Source of the DNA: Patiriisocius marinus
GTDB taxonomy: Bacteria > Bacteroidota > Bacteroidia > Flavobacteriales > Flavobacteriaceae
DNA: 64,000 nt
Direction: 5' to 3'
Assembly: GCF_008974325.1 (NCBI RefSeq)
Contig: NZ_BKCG01000001.1
Location: 620,001-684,000, forward strand
In this document: piece after piece, positions 10,618 through 22,084 of the stretch
Layout: each line of letters starts with the position of its first letter
Numbering within the stretch: the stretch's first letter is position 1
Translations under genes and position numbers: made by a program
Notes under the pieces: generated by a model
Database searches by the model: none
Told to the model about the DNA's origin: nothing
What the model saw: the letters and a program-made list of their open reading frames with translations, nothing else

Positions 10618-11096
10618 TATTCTTTTTCTAAAAAGTTTGACAATCCTTCTTCATCCATTTGTACTAAATACCAATCTTTTAATAAATTGGCTCCGGTGCT
10701 TTCATAAAAATTAACGGCTGGCTTATTCCAATCTAAAACTACCCATTCCACTCTTTTTACACCGTGATCGTTTGCAAATTTCATAACCTGTGTATACAAA
10801 GCCTTACCTACACCTAAACCACGTTTATTTTCCTTTACAATTAAATCTTCTAAATGAACCGTTTTACCTTTCCAAGTTGAAAATCTGAAATAACAAATTG
10901 CCATACCAACAATCTCGTCATCCAAAATCGCAATATAGCAATAGAACAATGGATTATTTCCAAAACCATTTGCAATCAAATCGTCTGTGGTGATAGCAAC
11001 AGCGTTAGGTTCCTTTTCAAAAATGGCAAGCTCTTTGATTAAATCAAGAACTGCAGGCATATCTTGAACTGATGCTTTACGTATATTTAATTTCAT
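10617..11096 (-). CDS. GNAT N-acetyltransferase (diamine/SSAT-like)
   Basis: A 159-residue GNAT protein. The acetyl-CoA loop is [17 protein letters not shown] (R-G-x-G-x-G/A motif), and the flanking features ([14 protein letters not shown] near residue 20-35, [29 protein letters not shown]) are those of the spermidine/thialysine acetyltransferase group, which has the same length. It probably acetylates a primary amine such as a polyamine or thialysine. Its stop codon overlaps the GTG start of aspartate kinase by one base, so the two genes form an operon, which would fit a link to lysine-type amines. It is divergent from fbp, with an unusual inverted repeat between them. Confidence 0.82.
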
Positions 11097-11112
11097 TAAA
11101 AGTGGTTTTGAG

Positions 11113-11156
11113 TAGCAAATATCGGTTCAATTTCTTAAAAATAGCGATATTTGCTA
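11113..11156. promoter_or_regulatory. Symmetric divergent promoter region between acetyltransferase and fbp
   Basis: Perfect 12-base inverted repeat: TAGCAAATATCG (11113-11124) and CGATATTTGCTA (11145-11156), 20-base spacer. Each arm, read outward, carries GATATTTG, one mismatch from the Bacteroidota -7 element TAnnTTTG, placed about 25 bases from the fbp start (11180) on one side and about 20 from the acetyltransferase start (11096) on the other. The -33 region of each promoter would then touch the other arm, so the two promoters would overlap. Confidence 0.45.
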
Positions 11157-11179
11157 TAAATTCACGACAACCAACCATA

Positions 11180-12184
11180 ATGGCAAACAAAAATCAAACA
11201 CTAGGAGAATTTATTATTGAAAACCAAACTGAGTTTAAATACTCTTCTGGCGAACTTTCACGTTTAATAAATTCAATAAGATTAGCAGCTAAAGTTGTTA
11301 ATCATGAGGTCAATAAGGCTGGGTTAGTTGATATTCTGGGAGCCGCTGGTGACACCAATATTCAAGGTGAGGACCAACAGAAACTAGACGTATATGCAAA
11401 CGATGTTTTTATAAAAACATTGACAAATCGTGAAATTGTTTGTGGTATAGCTAGTGAGGAAGAAGATGATTTTATTACCATCATAGGAAGAAACAAAAAA
11501 AACGACAATAAATATGTTGTGCTAATGGATCCCCTTGATGGCTCTAGTAATATCGATGTTAACGTTTCGGTAGGTACTATATTTTCTATCTATCGCCGTA
11601 TTACACCAGAAGGAACTCCGGTTACTTTAGAAGATTTTCTTCAACCAGGAAACAAACAAGTTGCAGCTGGATATATTGTTTACGGAACATCTACTATGAT
11701 TGTTTATTCCACTGGTCATGGTGTTAATGGATTTACATTGAACCCTGCAATTGGTACTTATTATTTATCTCACCCAAATATGCAATTTCCATTAGATGGA
11801 AATATATATTCTGTAAATGAAGGTAATTATGTTCATTTCCCACAAGGAGTGAAAGACTATATTAAATATTGCCAACAAGAAGAAGGTGATCGCCCTTATA
11901 CATCTAGGTATATTGGTTCACTTGTGTCAGACTTTCATAGAAATATGATTAAAGGTGGTATTTACATGTATCCAAATACAAGCAAAGACCCTAAAGGGAA
12001 GTTGCGATTATTATATGAATGTAACCCTATGGCTTACTTAGCAGAGCAAGCTGGAGGTTTGGCTAGCGATGGTCATATGCGAATTTTAGATATAACCCCT
12101 ACAGAACTTCATCAAAGAGTTCCTTTTTACTGTGGAAGTAAAAATATGGTAGAAAAAGCTGAACATTTTATGAAAAACGCATAA
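11180..12184 (+). CDS. fbp: Fructose-1,6-bisphosphatase, class I
   Basis: From the ATG at 11180 the protein has 334 residues, the normal class I FBPase length; upstream in-frame codons run through the promoter region and are not part of the gene. The metal and phosphate site [20 protein letters not shown] (D-P-L-D-G-S-S-N) is intact, as is the second acidic cluster EEEDDFI and the C-terminal [15 protein letters not shown]. It dephosphorylates fructose 1,6-bisphosphate in gluconeogenesis in the cytoplasm. The next gene starts 66 bases downstream on the same strand, with no terminator visible between them, so read-through into the small-GTPase cluster is possible. Confidence 0.95.
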
Positions 12185-12250: not shown

Positions 12251-12601
12251 ATGAGTAAAAAGACTAACACACAAGACCAAGAATCGATACAAGATTCAAG
12301 TTCAAAGATTGAAGCAATCAAAAACCTCATCTTTGGTGAAAACATACAACAGTATGGTTCCGAGTTTGAAGATTTAAAAAAGGTTATTGATAAGCAAAAG
12401 GCCGCTCTCGAAACGTATATCGAAGAAATAAGAGGCGAACTTATGCAAGCTATTGATTCATTAAGTACAGATGTAAATATTCGTATTACTGATCTAGAAG
12501 ACTCAATGAACGAAAAAACAGAAACACTTACAAAACAAAAAGTAGACAAAAAGGAATTAAGCAAAATGCTCATTTCACTTGGCGAAAAAATAGGTGCTTA
12601 A
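12251..12601 (+). CDS. Small coiled-coil protein of the GTPase cluster, unknown function
   Basis: A 116-residue, highly charged, largely helical protein without signal peptide or membrane segment. Residues 20-50 (IEAIKNLIFGENIQQYGSEF...) begin with an L-x-x-L-[LI]-FG-E pattern and are followed by a predicted coiled coil up to about residue 105. The N-terminal pattern echoes the start of the next gene (LLRDLLLVDDRE...), suggesting the two may share a short N-terminal module. I recognise a similar pattern from proteins annotated as OmpA-like envelope proteins in other phyla, but here no OmpA domain follows. It is 40 bases upstream of the Roadblock-like protein gene. Function unknown. Confidence 0.6.
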   Translation: MSKKTNTQDQESIQDSSSKIEAIKNLIFGENIQQYGSEFEDLKKVIDKQKAALETYIEEIRGELMQAIDSLSTDVNIRITDLEDSMNEKTETLTKQKVDKKELSKMLISLGEKIGA

Positions 12602-12641
12602 AATTTCGGCTCAATTTAATTAGTTTATTGAAAATCTAAAT

Positions 12642-13469
12642 ATGCTGCAACAAGAAGAGGAAAAACTACAACTCCTTAGAGATCTCCTGTTAGTTGATGA
12701 CAGGGAAGTTGCAAGTGCTGTGAACGAAAAACTTGAGGAGATAGCTTCTACTATTGAAACACAAGCAAAACTTTCTGAAAAAATAAACCCTATAATTGAG
12801 GCTCGTCTTAAAGAGTTTGTGACTCAAATTCCCGCTTCTTTGGGACCCGTTATCACACAAACACTTAAAACACAGATTCAATTTAGTAAAGACGAAGTTG
12901 TTGAAGCGTTGTACCCTATTTTGGGTAAAATGATTAAAAGATATATTGCAAATGAAATTGCAAAACTTTCTGAATCCATCAATCAAAAAGTGAATAATAC
13001 CTTTTCAATGGCATCTTTCAAACGAAAAATGAAATCTAAATTTTCGGGTGTTAAAGAAAGTGAAATTATGTTGAGCGAACTAGATGCTCCTAAAATCAAT
13101 GAAGTTTTCGCTATTCAAAAAGGGTCTGGAATTTTATTAGGAAACTATAGTTTAAGTAGTAAAGTTGATAAGGATATGGTAAGCGGAATGCTTACTGCCA
13201 TTAAAAGTTTTGTAGAAGATGCATTTGAAGGCGGAGCTCAAAATTTAGAATCTATAGAATATGAACTCTATAGTATTCATATTCAAAATTTTCACACATA
13301 CTATATTGCCGTTGTAATTTCAGGAAGTTATACTAGAGCTTTTGAAAGCGATTTAGAAAATAGCCTTTTCAAGGTATCAGAAAAATTATCATCAAAAATT
13401 AATACATTATCAAGATCTGAGGTAGATAGTATTTTAGAATCCCTTTTCAAAAGTTGGCAATCTAACTAA
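12642..13469 (+). CDS. Helical protein with Roadblock/LC7-like C-terminal domain
   Basis: A 275-residue cytoplasmic-looking protein. Residues 1-70 are helical and charged; 85-110 contain VVEALYPILGKMIKRYIANEI, a conserved helix; residues 150-235 (INEVFAIQKGSGILLGN..., DKDMVSGMLTAIKSFVEDAF, then strands YELYSIHIQNFHTYYIAVVI) have the strand-strand-long-helix-strand-strand order of Roadblock/LC7 or longin-type domains. From memory this same combination precedes OmpA domains in cyanobacterial and proteobacterial proteins; here it stands alone. Roadblock proteins (MglB) are GTPase-activating partners of bacterial Ras-like GTPases, and a Ras-like GTPase is the next gene. That pairing is the main functional hint; the fold call is mine and unverified. 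Confidence 0.6.
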   Translation: MLQQEEEKLQLLRDLLLVDDREVASAVNEKLEEIASTIETQAKLSEKINPIIEARLKEFVTQIPASLGPVITQTLKTQIQFSKDEVVEALYPILGKMIKRYIANEIAKLSESINQKVNNTFSMASFKRKMKSKFSGVKESEIMLSELDAPKINEVFAIQKGSGILLGNYSLSSKVDKDMVSGMLTAIKSFVEDAFEGGAQNLESIEYELYSIHIQNFHTYYIAVVISGSYTRAFESDLENSLFKVSEKLSSKINTLSRSEVDSILESLFKSWQSN

Positions 13470-13564
13470 TGTAAAGGTTTTTGAGATAAAGCGACTATAA
13501 AACCACTTTTAGTACCATAAACCATCATTAAAATAAGCTATACGAGTAAAATGGCCTTTTGAGA

Positions 13565-13589
13565 AATTATTCAATTGTATTGAATAATT
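13565..13589. promoter_or_regulatory. 25-bp perfect palindrome upstream of the small GTPase gene
   Basis: Arms AATTATTCAAT (13565-13575) and ATTGAATAATT (13579-13589) with the 3-base centre TGT, 53 bases before the GTPase start codon. It lies in the 173-base gap between the Roadblock-like gene and the GTPase gene. There is no T-run after it, so a binding site for a dimeric regulator is more likely than a terminator. Confidence 0.45.
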
Positions 13590-13642
13590 AAATACAGAAT
13601 TCTATTTTAAGAGTATATTTATATTTTTAAATTTAAAAAACA

Positions 13643-14131
13643 ATGTCACACCCAAAAAAAATTGTAATTCTCGGACATTTCGGTGTTGGAAAAACAAGTT
13701 TAATACGCCAATTTGTTGATTCACAGTTTAGTGAAGACTACCTAGTTACAGTAGGAGTTCATGTAAAGAAAAAATCTGTTACAATAGATAACAATGAAAT
13801 TACATTAGTAATTTGGGATATTGAAGGGAACACTTCTATTGACAAAGCAAGAAAATCGTACCTATTAGGATCGCACGGTTTTATTTACGTTTTTGATTTA
13901 ACTAGACCAGAAACTTATGCTAATCTTAAAGATCAGCTTCATTATTTAAAAGAAGAATATGCTAACGTACCTGTTGTAGTACTTGGCAACAAGGCAGATC
14001 AATTTGGCACAACAGTTTCTAAAGAATATTTTAGCACAAAGGAATTTGAAGATTGCCTATTTACTAGTGCATTAACGGGAGAAAATGTTGATAATGCTTT
14101 TGTTAAACTCACTAAAAAAATTATAGAATAA
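13643..14131 (+). CDS. Rab/Ras-like small GTPase
   Basis: A 162-residue stand-alone small GTPase. All G boxes are visible: G1 GHFGVGKT (11-18), G2 threonine T36 in YLVTVGVH, G3 D59-I-E-G62 in VIWDIEGN, G4 NKAD (116-119) and G5 TSAL (141-144). The pattern WDxxG and the spacing are Rab/Ras-like rather than Era- or MglA-like. The residue after G62 is N63, where Ras and Rab proteins have the catalytic glutamine, so intrinsic hydrolysis may be low and depend on a partner. There is no C-terminal cysteine for lipid attachment. The stop TAA shares its last A with the ATG of the hybrid kinase (TAATG), so the two are translationally coupled. Likely a molecular switch feeding the kinase; this is inference. 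Confidence 0.88.
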   Translation: MSHPKKIVILGHFGVGKTSLIRQFVDSQFSEDYLVTVGVHVKKKSVTIDNNEITLVIWDIEGNTSIDKARKSYLLGSHGFIYVFDLTRPETYANLKDQLHYLKEEYANVPVVVLGNKADQFGTTVSKEYFSTKEFEDCLFTSALTGENVDNAFVKLTKKIIE

Positions 14132-15636
14132 TGAGTTTAAGCAATATAAAATCTAACTTTTTAAAGAACAAAATACAAGTATTACAAATTGATACTGAAG
14201 GAACAATTCTTGAAAGTGACAATAGTTTATTTGTAGTTGATAACGGCACTTCTATTGTAGATTTACATCCATTTTTCTATACCATAACCCCAGAACTTGA
14301 AAACTTAGAAAAGGCAATTAGCTATCCTTGTGTTAATGTTGAAATTGGTAAAGAAGAGAAAATAATTGACATTGAAGTTAAAAAAATAGATACTGAAATC
14401 TTTATAACAATTATTGATTTCACCCAGCACTACCAAGACTCGCACCCACTAGTTCAAGAAAAAAATGAAGCTTCTATAGCTAAAAACAAACTAGCTTTTG
14501 AGAGAGAGTTATTGTTTGCTAAAGAAGATTTTAAAAATAGTTTTCTAGCGCATTTAAACCACGAAATTAGAAACCCTCTTAATAGTCTATTAGGATTTAC
14601 AGAGGTTTTATCTAAAACAAACTTAACATTTCAGCAAAAAGAAACTGTTAATGTAATCACTAAAACTGGAACACACATAAAAGTTTTAATGGATGATCTT
14701 TTAGATATCTCTAATATTGAAACTGGAATTTTAACTATAAAAAATATTCCTTTTAACCTTAACAATATTGTAGTCAATATTGTTAAGCACTTCCAGATTA
14801 AACAAAAAGATTCAAATATTGAACTAAGTTATGAAATTGGTAAAAAGGTGCCTGCTAAGCTTTTTGGAGACCCGACAAGACTAAACCAAATTTTATATAA
14901 TCTATTACATAACGCTTACCATAATACCGAAGAAGGAACCATTGTTGTTAAAGTAGTTAACAAAACCCCAGGAGAGTCTACTGCATTATTAAACTTTATA
15001 ATTAAAGATACAGGAAAAGGCATATCTAGTAAAAATCTAGATAAACTCTTCGACTCATACGTTCAATTAGAAGTAGAAAAAATAAAACCCTTAGGACAAG
15101 GATTAGGATTGAAAATAGTTCAAGACCTTGCACAATTAATGGGTGGAGAAGTAAGCGTAAAAAGCGAACTAAACGAAGGAAGTGAGTTTTGCGTTGAAAT
15201 TCCTTTTAAAACCAGAGAAAAAGCTTCAAAGAAAAAAACTGTAGCAAAAGGATCTGGGCTTTTATTGAGCAAACGAATACTTGCCGTTGAAGATGATCAA
15301 ATAAGTCAAATGCTTTTAATGAAACAATTTCTATCTGACGATAGTAGTTGCTACCTTGAAATAGCAGCTGATGGTGCTCAAACTAAAGATCTCTTAGAGA
15401 AAAAACAATACAGTGCCATCATTCTAAAGCGAAAAATTAAAGATATCTCTGGACTAGAGTTGATTGAATATATTCGTAATCACCCTAATCCTAAAATTTC
15501 TGAAATTCCAATAATTGTTGCAACGGGAATGGCAATGATCGAAGAACAAGAAGAAGCATTAGCTGCCGGAGCATCTGCTTTCTTAAAGAAACCATACACT
15601 CAAAAGGAACTATTTAAGTTGCTTGAAAAGCTGTAA
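14131..15636 (+). CDS. Hybrid histidine kinase with PAS-like N-terminus and degenerate receiver
   Basis: A 501-residue soluble kinase with no signal peptide or membrane helix. Residues 15-98 look like a PAS domain (IQVLQIDTEGTILESDNSLF). The dimerisation/H-box is FLAHLNHEIRNPLNSLLGF with H144; the N box is near 246-262, DTGKGIS at 293-299 and LGQGLGL at 321-327, so the kinase core is intact. The C-terminal receiver (382-501) keeps the acidic pair E387-D388-D389, T465 and K487, but the phospho-accepting Asp is replaced by K433 (codon AAG, 15427-15429), so it should not accept phosphate. It overlaps the GTPase gene by one base and converges on the TerB-like gene. Likely cytoplasmic input, plausibly the GTPase. 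Confidence 0.88.
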   Translation: MSLSNIKSNFLKNKIQVLQIDTEGTILESDNSLFVVDNGTSIVDLHPFFYTITPELENLEKAISYPCVNVEIGKEEKIIDIEVKKIDTEIFITIIDFTQHYQDSHPLVQEKNEASIAKNKLAFERELLFAKEDFKNSFLAHLNHEIRNPLNSLLGFTEVLSKTNLTFQQKETVNVITKTGTHIKVLMDDLLDISNIETGILTIKNIPFNLNNIVVNIVKHFQIKQKDSNIELSYEIGKKVPAKLFGDPTRLNQILYNLLHNAYHNTEEGTIVVKVVNKTPGESTALLNFIIKDTGKGISSKNLDKLFDSYVQLEVEKIKPLGQGLGLKIVQDLAQLMGGEVSVKSELNEGSEFCVEIPFKTREKASKKKTVAKGSGLLLSKRILAVEDDQISQMLLMKQFLSDDSSCYLEIAADGAQTKDLLEKKQYSAIILKRKIKDISGLELIEYIRNHPNPKISEIPIIVATGMAMIEEQEEALAAGASAFLKKPYTQKELFKLLEKL

Positions 15637-15642
15637 TTACTA

Positions 15643-16068
15643 TTACTTTTTGTTAAGTAGGTAACGGTAATCCTCAATATCAAGTCCACCTTGATAAATC
15701 TCTATTGAGCGCTTAATTAATTCTGCAGCAAGCTTATCAGTATACCCTAAACCTGTAGCGTATTTTTCAATTAAATGACGCTCTTGCTCATCAATTTCAT
15801 GATCTGCAAAAATCATCTCAAATAAATCATGCATACGCTCTAAACGGCGATCTGCATCGTTGGGTGGGTTGATTGGGTATTTGTTAGGATTTTTCAATAC
15901 CTCTTCATACTCAGACTCATCAATATCAAGTTTTCTAGCAAAACGACGAAGTAATTTTTCCTCTTCAGCATTAAGTGCCCCATCAACTGAAGCAATATTT
16001 GCAATCGATGCAAAATGGCCTAAGTTACGTTTGTGTTCTCCACTCTCAAATAAATCTGTAAATGACAT
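15643..16068 (-). CDS. TerB-like domain protein
   Basis: From the ATG at 16066-16068 the protein has 141 residues; an in-frame upstream ATG at 16104 would add 12 residues unlike the family. It is an all-helical TerB/DjlA-N-like domain: ASIANIASVDGALNAEEEKLL and MIFADHEIDEQERHLIEKYA are the two EF-hand-like helix pairs with D-G-x-[IL]-x-x-x-E that define the fold. TerB domains are named for tellurite resistance but occur widely as metal-responsive or membrane-associated adaptors; no other ter gene is near, so no tellurite role is implied. It converges on the hybrid kinase gene with 6 bases between the stops. Confidence 0.8.
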   Translation of the reverse strand: MSFTDLFESGEHKRNLGHFASIANIASVDGALNAEEEKLLRRFARKLDIDESEYEEVLKNPNKYPINPPNDADRRLERMHDLFEMIFADHEIDEQERHLIEKYATGLGYTDKLAAELIKRSIEIYQGGLDIEDYRYLLNKK

Positions 16069-16331
16069 AGTATAAATTTTATCCTGCAAATATAAAACAA
16101 GCACAAAATATTTCAGCGCAAAGAGAAAGAATCTTTTATCATTATTTATACAAAAATAATTCTGCTTAAAACAACCTAATTAATTACTACTTCGGAAATA
16201 TTAAAACCATTAAACTTTTCTTAATTACTAAATAACTAAGGGGTTTATTAGGTAATTTTAAAGAACATTTCAGAAAAACACCGCGAAATTATAGGTCTTT
16301 TTTAATTAAATAATACGATACGAAATAGTTT

Positions 16332-17360
16332 ATGCAAGAAACACCACTACTTATATTTAATGACAACGGTATCTACTGCAGTCAAGCAGAAGTTTATATT
16401 GATGCTTGGAAACCAGTGGATAAATGTATCATTACTCATGGTCACGCAGATCATAGTCGATGGGGACATAAAAACTATATCACACACACCAAAAATGTAC
16501 CTATAATAAAACATCGATTAGGTGAAATTAATGTAACTGGAAAAGACTGGGGAGAAACTTTCACAATAAATAGTGTAACATTTAGCTTGCATCCAGCAGG
16601 ACACATTGTGGCATCTAGCCAAGTAAGAGTTGAATACAAAGGTGAAGTTTGGGTATTTACAGGAGACTTTAAAACCGAAAACGACGGCATAGCAGAGCCA
16701 TTTGAACTCGTTAAATGCAATACCTTTATAACGGAATGCACTTTTGGGTTACCCGCCTTTAAATGGACGCCACAAGCTGAAGTCTTTACAGACATCAATA
16801 ACTGGTGGGCAACTAATAAAACCGAAAACAAAACTTCTATAATTTTTGGGTATAGTTTAGGTAAAGCACAACGAATCTTAAAACATCTGGACACAAGTAT
16901 TGGTAAAATTTATACGCACGGTGCTATTGAAAATATGACTAACGTCCTGCGGGAAAATTATAATTTTCACGAAACAACCAGAATTACTCGAGATACTACA
17001 AAAAAAGAACTTTTAGGCAATATCGTTATTGCGCCACCTAGCGCACATGGCGGTACTTGGATTAGAAAAATGGTACCTTACGTTACAGCTAATGCTAGTG
17101 GATGGATGACTTTTAGAGGCGCAAGAAGACGTCGCGCAATAGACAAAGGATTTGTACTGAGTGATCACGCAGATTGGGACGGATTACTAAAAACAGTAAA
17201 AGAAACTGGTGCCGAAAAAGTTATTGCTACTCACGGTTATACCGAAATTTTCTCAAAATATTTAAGAGAGGAAATGGGACTTGATGCTAGAACCGAAAAA
17301 ACACAATACGAGGAAGAAAGCGGAGAATCAGCTAAAAAAGAAGGAGAGGTAGCCGAATGA
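16332..17360 (+). CDS. Ligase-associated DNA exonuclease (metallo-beta-lactamase fold)
   Basis: A 342-residue MBL-fold nuclease. THGHADHSRWG is the HxHxDH metal motif, further ligands are in HPAGHI and FTGDFK, and VLSDHADWDGLL is the beta-CASP-type C-terminal histidine motif. It is the first gene of the four-gene ligase-associated DNA damage response cluster (exonuclease, ATP-dependent ligase, Lhr-like helicase, PdeM phosphoesterase), known from Proteobacteria and Bacteroidota. Its stop TGA overlaps the ATG of the ligase gene in the sequence ATGA. The 263 bases before it contain no gene; a TTATTAGGTAATTTTA stretch near 16246 may include a -7-like element. Confidence 0.88.
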   Translation: MQETPLLIFNDNGIYCSQAEVYIDAWKPVDKCIITHGHADHSRWGHKNYITHTKNVPIIKHRLGEINVTGKDWGETFTINSVTFSLHPAGHIVASSQVRVEYKGEVWVFTGDFKTENDGIAEPFELVKCNTFITECTFGLPAFKWTPQAEVFTDINNWWATNKTENKTSIIFGYSLGKAQRILKHLDTSIGKIYTHGAIENMTNVLRENYNFHETTRITRDTTKKELLGNIVIAPPSAHGGTWIRKMVPYVTANASGWMTFRGARRRRAIDKGFVLSDHADWDGLLKTVKETGAEKVIATHGYTEIFSKYLREEMGLDARTEKTQYEEESGESAKKEGEVAE

Positions 17361-18973
17361 AAGCATTTGCAACACTCATAAAAAAACTAGATAGCACTAA
17401 TAAAACAAATGAAAAAGTAGCTGCACTCACCGCTTATTTTAATCAAGCAAATGAAGACGATAAGCTATGGACAATAGCCATACTCTCACACCGCCGCCCA
17501 AAACGTCCAGTAAACACAACCCTTCTAAGGCATTGGGCTACCGAAATTAGCAACGTACCCTTATGGCTTTTTGAAGAAAGTTACCATATTGTTGGAGATT
17601 TAGCCGAAACCATAGCACTCATATTACCCACTAAAAATTCACTTTCAGAAACTTCCTGTGAGACATCTGTAGATAAGTCACTCACAGAATATATTGAAGA
17701 GATCATAAAGCTTAAAACGCTTGAAGAAAAGCAAAAAAAAGAATACTTACAAAGTACCTGGCTCAACCTTAACTATTTTGAGCGTTTTGTGTTTAATAAA
17801 ATTATTACCGGAGGATTTAGAATAGGTGTAAGTCAAAAATTAATGACCCGAGCTTTATCTAGAGCCACTGAAATTGATGAGGATATATTAGCGTATAAGT
17901 TAATGGGAAATTGGACACCTGAAACAACAACATATCAAAAACTAATTCTTGAAACTAATGAAGAGGATTACCTGAGTAAACCATACCCATTTTATTTAGC
18001 TTATGCAGTAGAAAATAATTTTCAAGAAGATTTAGGCAACATTAACGAATGGAGTTTTGAGCATAAATGGGATGGAATTAGAAGTCAAGTCATTATTAGA
18101 AATGATGAAGTTTTTGTTTGGTCTCGAGGAGAAGAACTCGTAACAGACAAATATCCCGAATTTCAGAAATTCCTTACTAATATACCCAATGGAACAGTAC
18201 TTGACGGAGAGATTTTACCTTTCGGAAATAACCAAATCGGAAATTTTAATGACCTTCAAACTAGAATTGGTAGAAAGAATATTTCAAAAGCATTATTGGA
18301 AAAAACACCAGTGATATTAAATGCTTATGATCTTCTTGAATGGGAAGGAGAGGATATTCGTCAAAAACCTTTTTCAGAAAGAAGAAAAATTCTCGATACA
18401 TTAATTGGAAATATAAACAGTGAAGAAATTGGCCTCTATCTTAGCGAGACAATGCGTTTTAACAACTGGGACGATGCCGCTAATGAACGCGAACTATCTA
18501 GAGAAAAACGAAGTGAAGGGTTAATGCTAAAACGTAAAGACTCCCCTTATTTAGTGGGAAGAAAAAAAGGCGATTGGTGGAAATGGAAAACAGACCCGTT
18601 TACTATTGATGCTGTTTTAACCTATGCTATGCGTGGTCATGGTAGACGTGCAAACTTATATACTGATTACACTTTCGGCCTATGGAATGAAGGCAAATTA
18701 GTCACATTTGCAAAAGCATATTCAGGATTAACAGATGCCGAATTTAGACAAGTTGATGCTTGGATAAAGAGAAACACTTTAGAGCGTTTTGGCCCAGTTA
18801 GAAGTGTTACACCACATCATGTGTTTGAAATTGCTTTTGAAGGAATTGCAGAAAGCAGCAGACATAAAAGCGGAATTGCTACAAGGTTTCCAAGAATTTT
18901 AAGGTGGCGAAAAGATAAACCAATGGAAGAAGCGAACACCTTAGACGATTTAAAAGCACTCATCCCCAAATGA
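17357..18973 (+). CDS. ATP-dependent DNA ligase
   Basis: A 538-residue ligase with an N-terminal helical DNA-binding domain (about 1-205), then the adenylation domain with motif I FEHKWDGIRSQ, in which K237 is the lysine that carries AMP, then EGLMLKRKDSPY and WWKWK (motifs IV and V) and the OB domain. It is the LigC/LigB-like enzyme of the ligase-associated repair cluster, distinct from the NAD-dependent replicative LigA. It joins nicked DNA after processing by its neighbours. It overlaps both neighbouring genes by 4 bases (ATGA), so the operon is translationally coupled. Confidence 0.93.
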   Translation: MKAFATLIKKLDSTNKTNEKVAALTAYFNQANEDDKLWTIAILSHRRPKRPVNTTLLRHWATEISNVPLWLFEESYHIVGDLAETIALILPTKNSLSETSCETSVDKSLTEYIEEIIKLKTLEEKQKKEYLQSTWLNLNYFERFVFNKIITGGFRIGVSQKLMTRALSRATEIDEDILAYKLMGNWTPETTTYQKLILETNEEDYLSKPYPFYLAYAVENNFQEDLGNINEWSFEHKWDGIRSQVIIRNDEVFVWSRGEELVTDKYPEFQKFLTNIPNGTVLDGEILPFGNNQIGNFNDLQTRIGRKNISKALLEKTPVILNAYDLLEWEGEDIRQKPFSERRKILDTLIGNINSEEIGLYLSETMRFNNWDDAANERELSREKRSEGLMLKRKDSPYLVGRKKGDWWKWKTDPFTIDAVLTYAMRGHGRRANLYTDYTFGLWNEGKLVTFAKAYSGLTDAEFRQVDAWIKRNTLERFGPVRSVTPHHVFEIAFEGIAESSRHKSGIATRFPRILRWRKDKPMEEANTLDDLKALIPK

Positions 18974-21429
18974 AACAAACCGAACTCATAAAAATAGCTT
19001 CAAATTGGTTTCAAGAAAAAAACTGGAAACCATTCCCATTTCAGAAAAAAACTTGGAAAGCTTTTTTAGATGGTAAGCACGGATTGTTAAACGCACCAAC
19101 TGGGAGCGGGAAAACTTATGCTCTTTGGGTTCCTATTGTATTGCAATACATAAAAGACAACCCTAATTATAAAGAGAAACACACTAAAGGAATAAAAGCC
19201 ATTTGGATTACTCCATTAAGAGCCTTATCGGTCGAAATACAACAATCTGCCCAACGTTTTGCTGATGAATTAGGCACTGGTTTAACTGTAGGAATTAGAA
19301 CAGGAGACACCCCTCAAAGTGTACGAGCGAAGCAAAAAAGAAGTATGCCAGATTTGCTAATTACTACGCCAGAAAGTTTAATGCTTTTACTTGCGAGCAA
19401 AGGGTATGAGAAAATGTTTAAAACACTTACTGCAGTTGTTGTAGATGAATGGCACGAGCTACTTGGGAGCAAGCGTGGTGTACAAATGGAGCTTGCACTT
19501 TCAAGATTAAAAACGGTATCACCTCAACTCCGAATTTGGGGTATTTCTGCAACGATAGGTAACTTAGAACAGGCGCAAGATGTTCTTTTAGGAATGAACC
19601 AATCTATAAAAGAGCATTCGGTTTTAATAAAGGCAAATCTTAATAAGAAAATAGTAGTCAAATCTATCATCCCTAAAAAGATGGAAACCTTTCCTTGGAG
19701 AGGACATATTGGACTACATGTGCTCGACCAAGTTATTCCAATTATTAAGGCTAGTAAAACAACATTGATTTTTACAAATACTCGAAGTCAGTGCGAAATT
19801 TGGTTTCAGAAAATACTTGAAAAATATCCTGAGTTTGCTGGCGAAATTGCAATGCACCATGGAAGTATCAATAAAGAAACACGCCTTTGGGTAGAACAGG
19901 CAATTAGAAATGAAAGTCTGAAAGCAGTAGTCGCAACTTCAAGTCTAGATTTAGGAGTCGATTTTGCACCAGTTGAAACTATTATCCAAATAGGAGGGCC
20001 AAAAGGAATCGCTAAATTTCTTCAACGTGCAGGACGAAGTAATCACCGTCCAGGTGAAGCTTCTGTTATACATTTTCTACCTACTCATGCGATGGAATTA
20101 ATAGAGGCATCAGCCCTAAAAAGAGCTGTGAAAGAAGATGTAATGGAAGACCGCATTCCATATTTAATGAGTTATGACGTGCTCATTCAATACCTTGTTA
20201 CACTTGCGGTGAGTGATGGTTTTATTCCTTCAGAAATATTCCCTGAAATTAAAAACACTTTCTGTTTTCAGGGCATCACTGACGAAGAATGGCTATGGTG
20301 TCTCAATTTCATTACAATGGGAAGTCAAAGTTTACAAGCTTATGATGAGTACAAACGGGTAATTATTGATGAAAATGGAATCTATAAAGTTGAAAGTAGA
20401 CAAACCGCAATGATGCATCGGCTTTCAATTGGGACTATTGTAAGTGACGCGATGGTACAAGTAAAATATGTGAGCGGTGGTTTTATAGGAACCATTGAAG
20501 AGTTTTTTATAGGAAAAATGAAACCTGGAGATGTGTTTGTTTTTGCAGGTAGAACATTAGAATTAGTACGTGTTAGAAATATGATTGCACAAGTTAGACG
20601 AAGTACAAAAAGAACTAGGAATATCGTTAGTTTTATGGGTGGTCGAATGGCGCTCTCATCTCAAATGTCTGAAATATTAAGACGCGAATTACAAAGTGAG
20701 GCGGATCATAAACGAAACACGCCAGAACTAAAAGCACTTAGCGGAATTTTTGACCGTCAGGAATTAGAAAGTATTGTCCCTGGAGAAAATGAATTTTTGA
20801 TTGAAACATTTAAAACTCGTGAAGGGTATCATACTGTTTTTTATCCATTTGAAGGAAGATTTGTACATATGGCGATGAGTGGACTACTTGCATATAGAAT
20901 TAGTTTACTACTGCCTATCACTTTTTCACTTGCGTACAATGATTATGGGTTTGAACTATTGAGCGATCAACCATTAGATGTACAGGAAGTGCTTGACAAC
21001 AACCTATTTAGCACTGACTATTTATTTGACGACCTTCAAAAAAGCTTAAACAGTACTGAGCTTGCTCGAAGAAAATTTAGAGATATTGCTGTAATTAGCG
21101 GTATGGTATTTACGGGCTATCCTAGTAAACAAATTAAAACAAAACATCTACAGAGTAACTCTCAACTATTATTTGATGTTTTTAGAGATTACGAAAATAA
21201 TAACCTTCTTTACATACAAGCTTTTAGAGAAACTTTTGAACACGAAATGGAAGAAGGTCGTTTACGCACTGCTTTAGAAAGAATCGCTACACAAAATATT
21301 ATTTGGAAACAATGTGACAAAGCCACGCCGTTTAGCTTTCCAATTATTACAGATAGATTGAGAGAAAAACTATCTTCAGAAAAGTTAAAAGACCGAATTA
21401 AAAAAATGACATTGCTATTAACTAAATAG
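18970..21429 (+). CDS. Lhr-like DEXH-box DNA helicase of the ligase cluster
   Basis: An 819-residue superfamily 2 helicase, the length of the Lhr core without the long C-terminal extension. Walker A is APTGSGKT (42-49), the Walker B box is D159-E-W-H162, SATIGN is motif III, and LDLGVDFAPVETIIQIGGP plus FLQRAGRSNHRPG are motifs V and VI, followed by the winged-helix and Lhr-specific domains. Lhr translocates 3' to 5' along single-stranded DNA and unwinds RNA:DNA hybrids in characterised members. The start overlaps the ligase stop by 4 bases; 19 bases separate it from the PdeM gene. Confidence 0.92.
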   Translation: MKQTELIKIASNWFQEKNWKPFPFQKKTWKAFLDGKHGLLNAPTGSGKTYALWVPIVLQYIKDNPNYKEKHTKGIKAIWITPLRALSVEIQQSAQRFADELGTGLTVGIRTGDTPQSVRAKQKRSMPDLLITTPESLMLLLASKGYEKMFKTLTAVVVDEWHELLGSKRGVQMELALSRLKTVSPQLRIWGISATIGNLEQAQDVLLGMNQSIKEHSVLIKANLNKKIVVKSIIPKKMETFPWRGHIGLHVLDQVIPIIKASKTTLIFTNTRSQCEIWFQKILEKYPEFAGEIAMHHGSINKETRLWVEQAIRNESLKAVVATSSLDLGVDFAPVETIIQIGGPKGIAKFLQRAGRSNHRPGEASVIHFLPTHAMELIEASALKRAVKEDVMEDRIPYLMSYDVLIQYLVTLAVSDGFIPSEIFPEIKNTFCFQGITDEEWLWCLNFITMGSQSLQAYDEYKRVIIDENGIYKVESRQTAMMHRLSIGTIVSDAMVQVKYVSGGFIGTIEEFFIGKMKPGDVFVFAGRTLELVRVRNMIAQVRRSTKRTRNIVSFMGGRMALSSQMSEILRRELQSEADHKRNTPELKALSGIFDRQELESIVPGENEFLIETFKTREGYHTVFYPFEGRFVHMAMSGLLAYRISLLLPITFSLAYNDYGFELLSDQPLDVQEVLDNNLFSTDYLFDDLQKSLNSTELARRKFRDIAVISGMVFTGYPSKQIKTKHLQSNSQLLFDVFRDYENNNLLYIQAFRETFEHEMEEGRLRTALERIATQNIIWKQCDKATPFSFPIITDRLREKLSSEKLKDRIKKMTLLLTK

Positions 21430-21448
21430 CTCATGTATCTTTGATGTC

Positions 21449-22084
21449 TTGACACATTTAATACAAATAAGAAAACAAGATTTTATCCTACACGCTTCTG
21501 GAGCAATTTTCTGGAAGAATCAGTCTATGCTTTTAATAGCAGATGTACATTTAGGAAAAGTCACACACTTTAGAAAACACGGCGCTGCAATACCTTTAAT
21601 TGCGGCATATGAAAATCTCGAAAAACTCACTGAAGTTGTAAATTATTTTCAACCAAAAACAGTTTGCTTTTTAGGCGATTTGTTTCATAGTGTCCTTAAC
21701 AGTGAATGGGAGGATTTCACAAAATGGGTAGAATATATTAAGTCTAATGTGATATTAATTAGCGGTAACCACGATATTATACCACAGTATTTATTTGAAG
21801 ATATCGATGTGAAAGTATTAGAAGAACTTAAAATCAATAATTTCTATTTTACACATCACCCAACGGAACACGACACATTATTTAACTTTTGCGGTCATAT
21901 TCATCCAGGAGTAAAAATGCGTGGAATTGGAAGACAAGTGATGCGACTTGCTTGTTTCTTCAAAACTAAAAATCAAATGATCTTTCCTGCCTTCGGAAAT
22001 TTTACAGGAAAATACATTTTAGAACCAACAAAAGAAGATGAAGTTTTTGTTCTTGTAGATGACGAAGTGATTGCTGTTAGTTAG
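21449..22084 (+). CDS. pdeM: Ligase-associated DNA damage response endonuclease PdeM
   Basis: A 211-residue calcineurin-like metallophosphoesterase with all metal motifs: ADVHLGK (D32, H34), GDLFH (76-80), SGNHD (105-109), THHP and CGHIHPG. It is the Mn2+-dependent nuclease/phosphoesterase of the ligase-associated cluster. The start is TTG at 21449-21451: an ATG at 21444 is in another frame and meets TGA at once, and the reading from TTG begins at the right point relative to the conserved ILHASGAIFW segment. Last gene of the operon, converging on the secreted-protein block, with a cruciform-like repeat in between. Confidence 0.88.
   Translation: MTHLIQIRKQDFILHASGAIFWKNQSMLLIADVHLGKVTHFRKHGAAIPLIAAYENLEKLTEVVNYFQPKTVCFLGDLFHSVLNSEWEDFTKWVEYIKSNVILISGNHDIIPQYLFEDIDVKVLEELKINNFYFTHHPTEHDTLFNFCGHIHPGVKMRGIGRQVMRLACFFKTKNQMIFPAFGNFTGKYILEPTKEDEVFVLVDDEVIAVS

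Follow-up and report, generated by a model that had tools for sequence, protein, structure and literature searches.

We analysed a stretch of 64,000 nucleotides from Patiriisocius marinus, a member of the Flavobacteriaceae (contig NZ_BKCG01000001.1 of assembly GCF_008974325.1, positions 620,001 to 684,000, forward strand), which is referred to below as the window. Four open reading frames (ORFs) lie head to tail on its + strand at 12251-15636, and their products, here called P1 to P4, are a coiled-coil protein, a protein with a predicted longin domain, a Rab-like small GTPase and a histidine kinase. By its sequence features the locus belongs to the Group 1 Rup systems, and the model of P2 suggests that the GTPase of such a system is accompanied by a longin fold. 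The parts of the locus, with lengths in amino acids (aa) or base pairs (bp), are as follows.

12251..12601, + strand: P1, 116 aa, coiled-coil protein with the conserved N-terminal motif KIEAIKNLIFGENIQQY (sequence and homologues)
12642-13469, + strand: P2, 275 aa, whole gene (ORF)
12642..13085, + strand: P2 residues 1-148, long helical region (AlphaFold2, low to moderate confidence)
13086..13466, + strand: P2 residues 149-275, predicted longin (Roadblock/longin superfamily) domain (fold, with weak sequence matches)
13470..13642, no strand: 173-bp gap separating P3 from P2, which in relatives can hold an extra GTPase and a kinase-less PAS protein, or a PAS remnant
13643..14131, + strand: P3, 162 aa, Rab-like small GTPase of Rup Group 1 type, with switch I F-S-E-D-Y-L-V-T
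14131-15636, + strand: P4, 501 aa, whole gene (ORF)
14131..14526, + strand: P4 residues 1-132, PAS domain and long exit helix (AlphaFold2, PAS matches)
14455..14457, + strand: codon of P4 Gln109, the invariant Gln of the PAS exit helix (alignment)
14533..14727, + strand: P4 HisKA (DHp) domain, residues 135-199, with the phospho-accepting His144 (Pfam, alignment)
14866..15210, + strand: P4 HATPase_c domain, residues 246-360, with the N, G1 and G2 boxes intact in the window copy (Pfam)
15277..15624, + strand: P4 Response_reg receiver, residues 383-498, without a phospho-acceptor Asp (Pfam)
15427..15429, + strand: codon of P4 Lys433, at the position of the receiver's phospho-accepting Asp (alignment)

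An initial annotation, made from the sequence of the window, had reported four co-directional genes with the last two fused at TAATG, and this overlap is indeed present, the P3 stop and the P4 start having base 14131 in common. It had also described a kinase without a membrane sensor; no transmembrane-like segment was found in P4 or in the other three proteins, for which the highest 19-residue Kyte-Doolittle mean is 1.15. The block is flanked upstream by a fructose-1,6-bisphosphatase gene (fbp) and downstream by a convergent TerB-like gene. Of 80 loci from related genomes, 67 have the former (window 11072-12184) as the immediate upstream neighbour on the same strand, and in 59 the latter (window 15643-16104) converges from downstream.

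These 80 loci are the best among 382 relatives found by a scan of named genomes; they are the closest relatives, so the counts describe Flavobacteriaceae and their like rather than the whole family. The order P1-P2-P3-P4 is found in 78 of the 80, and the other two (L068 and L092) end at a contig edge within P2, which bears out the expectation of the initial annotation that the four genes are conserved as a block and that the GTPase and kinase genes are neighbours. All four genes are full length in 75 loci, while P4 is short in three of the 78, two of which lie near contig ends (L070 and L090) and one of which has P4 as two ORFs of 364 and 381 aa (L115). A P1 homologue precedes P2 in every one of the 80. 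We further examined 17 fetched loci, comprising 16 from relatives (several of them duplicates of genomes among the 80 loci) and a second complete copy of the block (L027) on another contig of the same genome; the four genes stand in order in 16, and the odd one (L043, in genome G100) carries only P2 with a P1-like gene next to it. The P1-like protein beside the P2 homologue at L043 is 329 aa long.

Across a set of 118 genomes that includes P. marinus itself, P2 is present in 17, and P3 at E<=1e-20 in 16, which are the P2-bearing genomes minus G100. All 18 Ras-family GTPase genes at E<=1e-15 in the set are confined to these 16 genomes, each of which has P2. P1 to P4 are one conserved unit. Hitchhiking synteny as the sole cause of this co-conservation was rejected in view of the second copy and of occurrences in other phyla.

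P3 matches the Pfam family Ras at 1.3e-32, and among proteins of known structure its highest-scoring sequence matches are Rab proteins, led by Rab-1B at E 1e-24 (among the best 60 of 624 matches). The initial annotation had credited it with complete G boxes. All five can be located (G1 GHFGVGKTS; G2 T36; G3 DIEG, then N; G4 NKAD; G5 TSAL), but "complete" is too strong for G3, as the residue after DxxG, which is the catalytic Gln in most Ras and Rab proteins, is Asn in P3. In an alignment of 90 homologous GTPases, which leaves out those under 150 aa, the D, E and G of G3 are kept in all 90, and Gln follows in 10 and is absent in 80. The residues Phe29 and Tyr33 of switch I are likewise found in 90 of 90, spaced as Phe33 and Tyr37 of Ypt7. 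An identity as an MglA-type GTPase was considered and rejected, since the G3 region reads DIEG followed by N and not TVPGQ or GTPGQ.

Neither P1 nor P2 has a Pfam match over the curated cut-off, and nothing in NCBIfam exceeds its cut-off for either. The coiled coil of P1 was judged from its sequence and from sub-threshold matches to helical families. Residues 11-95 of P2 match DUF445 at 0.0049, which is below the DUF445 cut-off, and an N-terminal motif is weakly common to P1 and P2 (probability 16 percent, P 0.0017, compared with 0.053 for the reversed profile).

The structure of P2 was predicted with AlphaFold2 from 56 P2 sequences; rows that were redundant at an identity of 85 or 80 percent had been removed before structure prediction. 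With low to moderate confidence, its N-terminal part is modelled as helices at residues 2-17, 20-119, 123-135 and 139-147. The domain that follows has predicted strands at 151-159 and 165-170, a helix at 177-196, strands at 204-207, 210-216 and 220-227, and helices at 232-250 and 258-273, that is, the order strand-strand-helix-strand-strand-strand-helix-helix over residues 151-273. The strand-strand-helix-strand-strand region that the initial annotation had read from the sequence of this 275-residue protein thus reappears in the model, at 151-227. A five-stranded sheet, a helix between strands 2 and 3, and two C-terminal helices are the features expected of a longin fold, and all of them can be seen in this modest-confidence model. 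According to a passage of PMC10933270, longin lacks the helix that Roadblock has at its N-terminus and has a second one at the C-terminus instead. The P2 model has the two C-terminal helices that mark a longin; the short helix at 139-147 also precedes its sheet.

Searches with the model led to the same group of folds. The top solved-structure match by Foldseek is the Rab exchange factor Mon1-Ccz1 with Ypt7 (E 1.9e-4), one of six matches at E<=0.001, and further matches include Rag, adaptor sigma and longin SNARE chains, MglB (ranks 23 and 26) and an Asgard Roadblock protein (rank 44). VIA-align re-ranks Foldseek's own list and is therefore a second look at the same candidates. The 50 matches listed by VIA-align are all longin-type chains, with Z from 13.7 down to 10.7: SNARE longins, small and medium chains of adaptors and COPI, and chains of TRAPP, Mon1-Ccz1, BLOC-3 and Fuzzy, which we take to be longin folds. 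The best of them is 4p6z_S (Z 13.7, 2.5 A over 117 residues), and a Lokiarchaeal longin is also among those listed (Z 12.1).

Sequence comparison gave fainter signals. Fuz_longin_1, the family of FUZ, MON1 and HPS1, is the only Pfam family that recurs among 29 domain sequences (four of 29, best E 0.0028); the other 11 families have one member each, and one of these, DUF2172 (0.0021), has a slightly better E than the longin family. Against the sequences of the PDB, the domain profile has the TRAPP subunit BET5 as its top match, with an E of 0.25 that is non-significant alone and is equalled by unrelated proteins, and the full-length profile found a designed protein only (E 0.27). Over 98 columns, the domain profile is also colinear with a profile of 29 MglB-type proteins (probability 62 percent and P 7.7e-5 by hhalign); the controls for this alignment gave P 0.18 and 0.24 with reversed profiles and 0.0087 with an unrelated PAS profile.

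This last result, together with the two MglB entries in the Foldseek list, is what favours P2 as an MglB-like Roadblock GTPase-activating protein (GAP), the partner that the initial annotation had proposed for P3. Longin-type chains nevertheless fill the 50 VIA-align matches listed, the model ends in two C-terminal helices, and a search of the complete genome for Robl_LC7 (PF03259) gave no match at E values up to 10, on which ground the assignment of P2 to this Pfam family was rejected. We therefore regard an MglB-like GAP as unlikely. Its fold prediction lets us place P2 149-275 in the longin/Roadblock superfamily with good confidence, and as longin rather than Roadblock with moderate confidence. 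The Roadblock fold that had been expected at about residues 150-235 is accordingly retained at the level of the superfamily, over 149-275 of the model, whereas its best matches are to longin. Similarly, a superfamily partner of the GTPase is predicted as had been supposed, yet activation of GTP hydrolysis in the manner of MglB becomes one option, as Roadblock/longin platforms are described in PMC10933270, as far as the cited text goes, as acting mainly as exchange factors and occasionally as GAPs. A Roadblock/longin-type fold, in a predicted model, and a GTPase with a kinase beside it in other genomes were thus found at the two points on which the initial annotation had staked its proposal.

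The longin likeness might also be that of a generic alpha/beta sandwich, in which case P2 would have nothing to do with the GTPase and the block would be held together only by vertical inheritance between fbp and terB. The modest confidence of the P2 model is in keeping with this, and so is the position of the block, which follows fbp in 67 and precedes a terB-like gene in 59 of the 80 loci. We find it very improbable, however. The VIA-align Z of P2 is above the background level given by the program for models of the alpha/beta class, two sequence routes (the Pfam scan and the MglB-type profile alignment) lead to the same superfamily, P2 and the GTPase co-occur strictly, and the block also stands elsewhere, at L027 on the other contig as well as in Nostoc and Mesorhizobium.

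In P4, residues 1-132 are modelled as a PAS domain followed by a long exit helix (AlphaFold2; predicted local distance difference test score, pLDDT, 90.4), and PAS proteins fill the structure-match lists for this region; two of the 84 rows of the PAS alignment were left out by hand after the redundancy filter. Conservation was counted on 98 full-length rows, a set that leaves out P4 proteins outside 440-560 aa and holds duplicates because several genomes are also named loci. Phe48, Asp80, Tyr101, Gln109 and Asn112 of the PAS region are each present in all 98, and Gln16 is nearly as constant (97). Gln109, which lies on the exit helix, is found in 100 of 102 proteins when truncated copies are added. 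The mean pairwise identity over 75 loci is 36.9 percent for the PAS region, 50.1 for DHp, 42.6 for the ATPase domain and 34.2, the lowest, for the receiver; the constant feature of the PAS region is this set of positions and the region's presence, not its overall identity.

The initial annotation had named P4 a hybrid histidine kinase. HisKA, HATPase_c and a receiver are all present, and the DHp and ATPase boxes are intact in the window copy and in most relatives; the label needs qualifying, however, because Lys433 takes the place of the expected phospho-acceptor Asp in the receiver. This Asp is missing in 52 of 86 homologues (a set that leaves out the duplicates of the 98 rows), which fall into four groups of 25, 13, 8 and 6. 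The tree implies four changes, of which at least three are forced by well-supported branches; it is unrooted, and the direction of change, loss of Asp, is assumed. The catalytic residues have decayed further in some homologues, all the same kept at full length: L052 singly lacks the ATPase G1 box, and the tandem extra copies L097 and L100 lack the DHp His. The P4 proteins of Nonlabens (L073, L074, L076, L089, L091, L103, L105 and L118) have lost both the G1 box and the receiver Asp and have kept the invariant Gln, and they are likely pseudokinases.

In 11 of the 80 loci, which are Ulvibacter-like (L044-L046, L048, L050-L052, L054, L056, L060 and L064), the interval between P2 and P3 holds an extra GTPase and then a PAS protein with a tail resembling a coiled coil and no kinase domain; this protein is 198-201 aa long in ten loci and 223 aa in L045. 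PAS remnants of 116-139 aa are found in six loci, alone or alongside. The corresponding interval of the window (13470-13642) contains neither an extra GTPase nor a kinase-less PAS protein, the gap not having been searched for remnants, and it may be the scar of a lost duplicate.

Group 1 Rup neighbourhoods were described by Wuichet & Søgaard-Andersen in 2014 (PMC4316618). In the passages of that paper cited here, they consist of a coiled-coil protein, a protein whose uncharacterised conserved domain often precedes a transmembrane helix and OmpA, a GTPase without the G3 catalytic Gln, and an output with an invariant Gln in its N-terminal region, which may be a GGDEF/EAL protein or a histidine kinase. 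The same passages state that no Rup member had then been characterised experimentally, and we found no later characterisation in the open-access literature. Judged by sequence, the P1-P4 locus is a Group 1 Rup system that fits every feature tested: the GTPase has Asn in place of the catalytic Gln after DxxG, a coiled-coil protein is its neighbour (in 80 of 80 loci for P1, and also on Nostoc and Mesorhizobium plasmids), P2 has the place of the conserved-domain protein, and the output is a histidine kinase with an invariant Gln in its N-terminal region. Gln109 presumably corresponds to the Gln of the published logo, Gln16 being nearly as constant. There are differences as well. The window P2 has no transmembrane helix or OmpA, which the published "often" allows, the histidine kinase has a receiver without Asp, and the domain left unassigned in the cited text of PMC4316618 is modelled here as a longin and the Gln region as a PAS domain. 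Soluble P2 and the pseudo-receiver kinase make the flavobacterial form a variant of Group 1 Rup.

Distant relatives fit the published description more literally. P2 relatives occur in 13 of 296 genomes drawn from the phylum; outside the family they are ORFs of about 600-740 aa, and four of four tested distant Bacteroidota proteins are OmpA fusions in which a hydrophobic segment follows the shared domain. Most of these distant relatives have P1-, P3- or output-like ORFs nearby, and some loci lack the full four: among the ORFs listed near P2, there is no GTPase match in L142, L144, L145 and L147-L150 and no P1 match in L142, L150 and L151. A Mesorhizobium plasmid has the order hypothetical protein (P1-like), OmpA family protein (P2), "Rab family GTPase" and cyclase, and a Nostoc plasmid has P1, P2, P3 and a kinase-like P4; the same order in Nostoc supports a Group 1 placement of P3.

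At the distant Bacteroidota loci, each output tested was either a kinase accompanied by a separate sigma-54 regulator or an activator of the PAS/sigma-54 type. Our PAS profile reaches the sigma-54 outputs by hhalign at 79 percent (HMMER 0.0086 to 0.8) and the Nostoc kinase at E 0.0015, with a weak match to the rhizobial cyclase (0.089). It misses the kinase outputs of four distant Bacteroidota (hhalign 2 percent), in which a like-placed Q can be seen by eye. A helix with a like-placed Gln is found on the sigma-54 activators and on Nostoc P4, and more weakly in the rhizobial cyclase.

Taken together, we slightly favour a mechanism in which a longin-regulated Rab-like switch (P3) gates the histidine kinase (P4), with P2 as its platform and P1 as a scaffold. 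P3 would be a Rab-like molecular switch, on which the longin domain of P2, most likely as a dimer, would dock as a platform for nucleotide exchange (or hydrolysis), while P1 would be a coiled-coil scaffold working with P2. P4 would be the effector: its PAS domain and the exit helix with Gln109 would bind the switch region of P3-GTP, and the exit helix would relay the change into the histidine-kinase core, whose activity would follow. The receiver in this clade has lost its phospho-acceptor and is probably a structural or regulatory pseudo-receiver; any phosphate would then be passed to an unlinked partner. Comparable front ends are joined in other bacteria to other outputs, namely sigma-54 activators, a nucleotide cyclase, other kinases and, from the literature, GGDEF/EAL proteins. 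The block, the co-occurrence and the motifs are computed and the folds are predicted, and from them we infer every step of binding, dimerisation, exchange, hydrolysis and phosphotransfer as well as the scaffold role of P1.

Several observations weigh against this mechanism. The P2 model is modest, with a mean pLDDT of 70.6, a predicted TM-score (pTM) of 0.47 and blocks of ten residues at 60-86 within the domain, and the remaining four models stand at 55.9-61.0. Foldseek TM-scores are low, the best match having 0.35 by query and 0.53 by target. The Fuz_longin_1 matches seen in detail are below the cut-off (16.1 and 12.1 against 26.1 bits), and the domain of the window P2 itself matches no Pfam longin family. 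Tri-longin Rab exchange factors need a Y-K/R motif in switch I according to the cited part of PMC12383261; the pair is Y-L in the window P3, and Y-K in 51 of the 90 aligned GTPases and in the second copy of the same genome. G100 has P1- and P2-like genes with a best Ras match of only 1.7e-6, and no GTPase or kinase match is present in the 14 kb around these genes at L043. Finally, the Nonlabens group of eight is without the ATPase G1 box, and therefore kinase activity cannot be essential everywhere.

Gln109 could instead act on the GTPase. Control between P3 and P4 would then be reversed: P4 and its PAS exit helix would regulate P3, with Gln109 as the GAP Gln supplied in trans and the GTPase as the output. 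Speculation on a Gln provided in trans is found in the passages of PMC4316618 cited here, which also take the GTPase to be the output in conservons. Our data are in line with this in that Gln109 is nearly invariant while 80 of 90 GTPases lack the G3 Gln, that 11 of 80 loci have kept a kinase-less PAS/coiled-coil protein next to an extra GTPase, with PAS remnants in six, and that the catalytic residues of kinase and receiver have decayed in some groups. We nevertheless hold reversed control to be rather unlikely, as the DHp and ATPase boxes are intact in the window P4 and most relatives, the comparable front ends on sigma-54 activators and the cyclase look like input to outputs, and the Gln is missing in two of 102 proteins.

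The longin-regulated switch resembles several known systems in part. The MglA/MglB polarity switch of Myxococcus and Thermus likewise combines a small GTPase with a partner of the Roadblock/longin superfamily, but the G3 of P3 is DxEG without a fixed Gln, as opposed to the TVPGQ or GTPGQ of MglA, and P2 is nearer to longin folds. Actinobacterial conservons (AGPS, CvnA-D) are four-gene units that, as described in parts of PMC13343842 and PMC4316618, share with our locus a kinase, a Roadblock-type protein and a Ras-like GTPase. They differ in that their GTPase is of the MglA family, CvnA has membrane-spanning helices (both from the cited text of PMC4316618), and the fourth protein, CvnC, is of unknown function, in contrast to the coiled-coil P1; conservon membership was rejected, as P4 has no membrane-spanning segment and the G3 of P3 is not MglA-type. 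Mon1-Ccz1, Fuzzy-Inturned, BLOC-3 and TRAPP pair a longin fold with a Rab-like GTPase, as predicted here. The eukaryotic factors are unlike our locus, which is a bacterial operon with a kinase, has one longin domain per protein and lacks the Lys of Y-K/R in the window P3.

The initial annotation knew of no described system with this combination. That claim was wrong, since the combination is that of the Group 1 Rup neighbourhood, and conservons are a second system with GTPase, Roadblock-type protein and kinase. The type of neighbourhood is thus known, and what appears to be new here is the predicted longin identity of the partner domain. In the open-access literature, a search outside which most subscription papers lie, we found no report linking Rup to longin or Roadblock and no record of the PAS identity of the Rup Gln region. 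A bacterial longin would not be wholly novel, as the joint class "Longin/Roadblock" is marked present in Bacteria in Table 1 of PMC4917890, the part of that paper cited here.

It is possible, although somewhat doubtful, that Rup systems of Bacteroidota, Cyanobacteria and Proteobacteria are in general bacterial Rab-longin switches with a PAS readout on kinases, sigma-54 activators, cyclases and cyclic di-GMP enzymes. If so, bacteria would share the Rab/longin pairing with Asgard archaea and eukaryotes, and the pairing would sit in the GTPase family from which eukaryotic Ras/Rab proteins have been proposed to derive, which would bear on its origin. If the partner is a longin, the question of the regulator becomes directly testable with small soluble proteins in standard assays of exchange and hydrolysis. 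All four parts are available from the flavobacterial operon without membrane or OmpA segments.

Further along the window, the genes at 16332-22084 resemble by sequence those for an exonuclease of the metallo-beta-lactamase type, an ATP-dependent DNA ligase, a large helicase and a phosphoesterase, a gene run that we take to be similar to known ligase-helicase repair operons.

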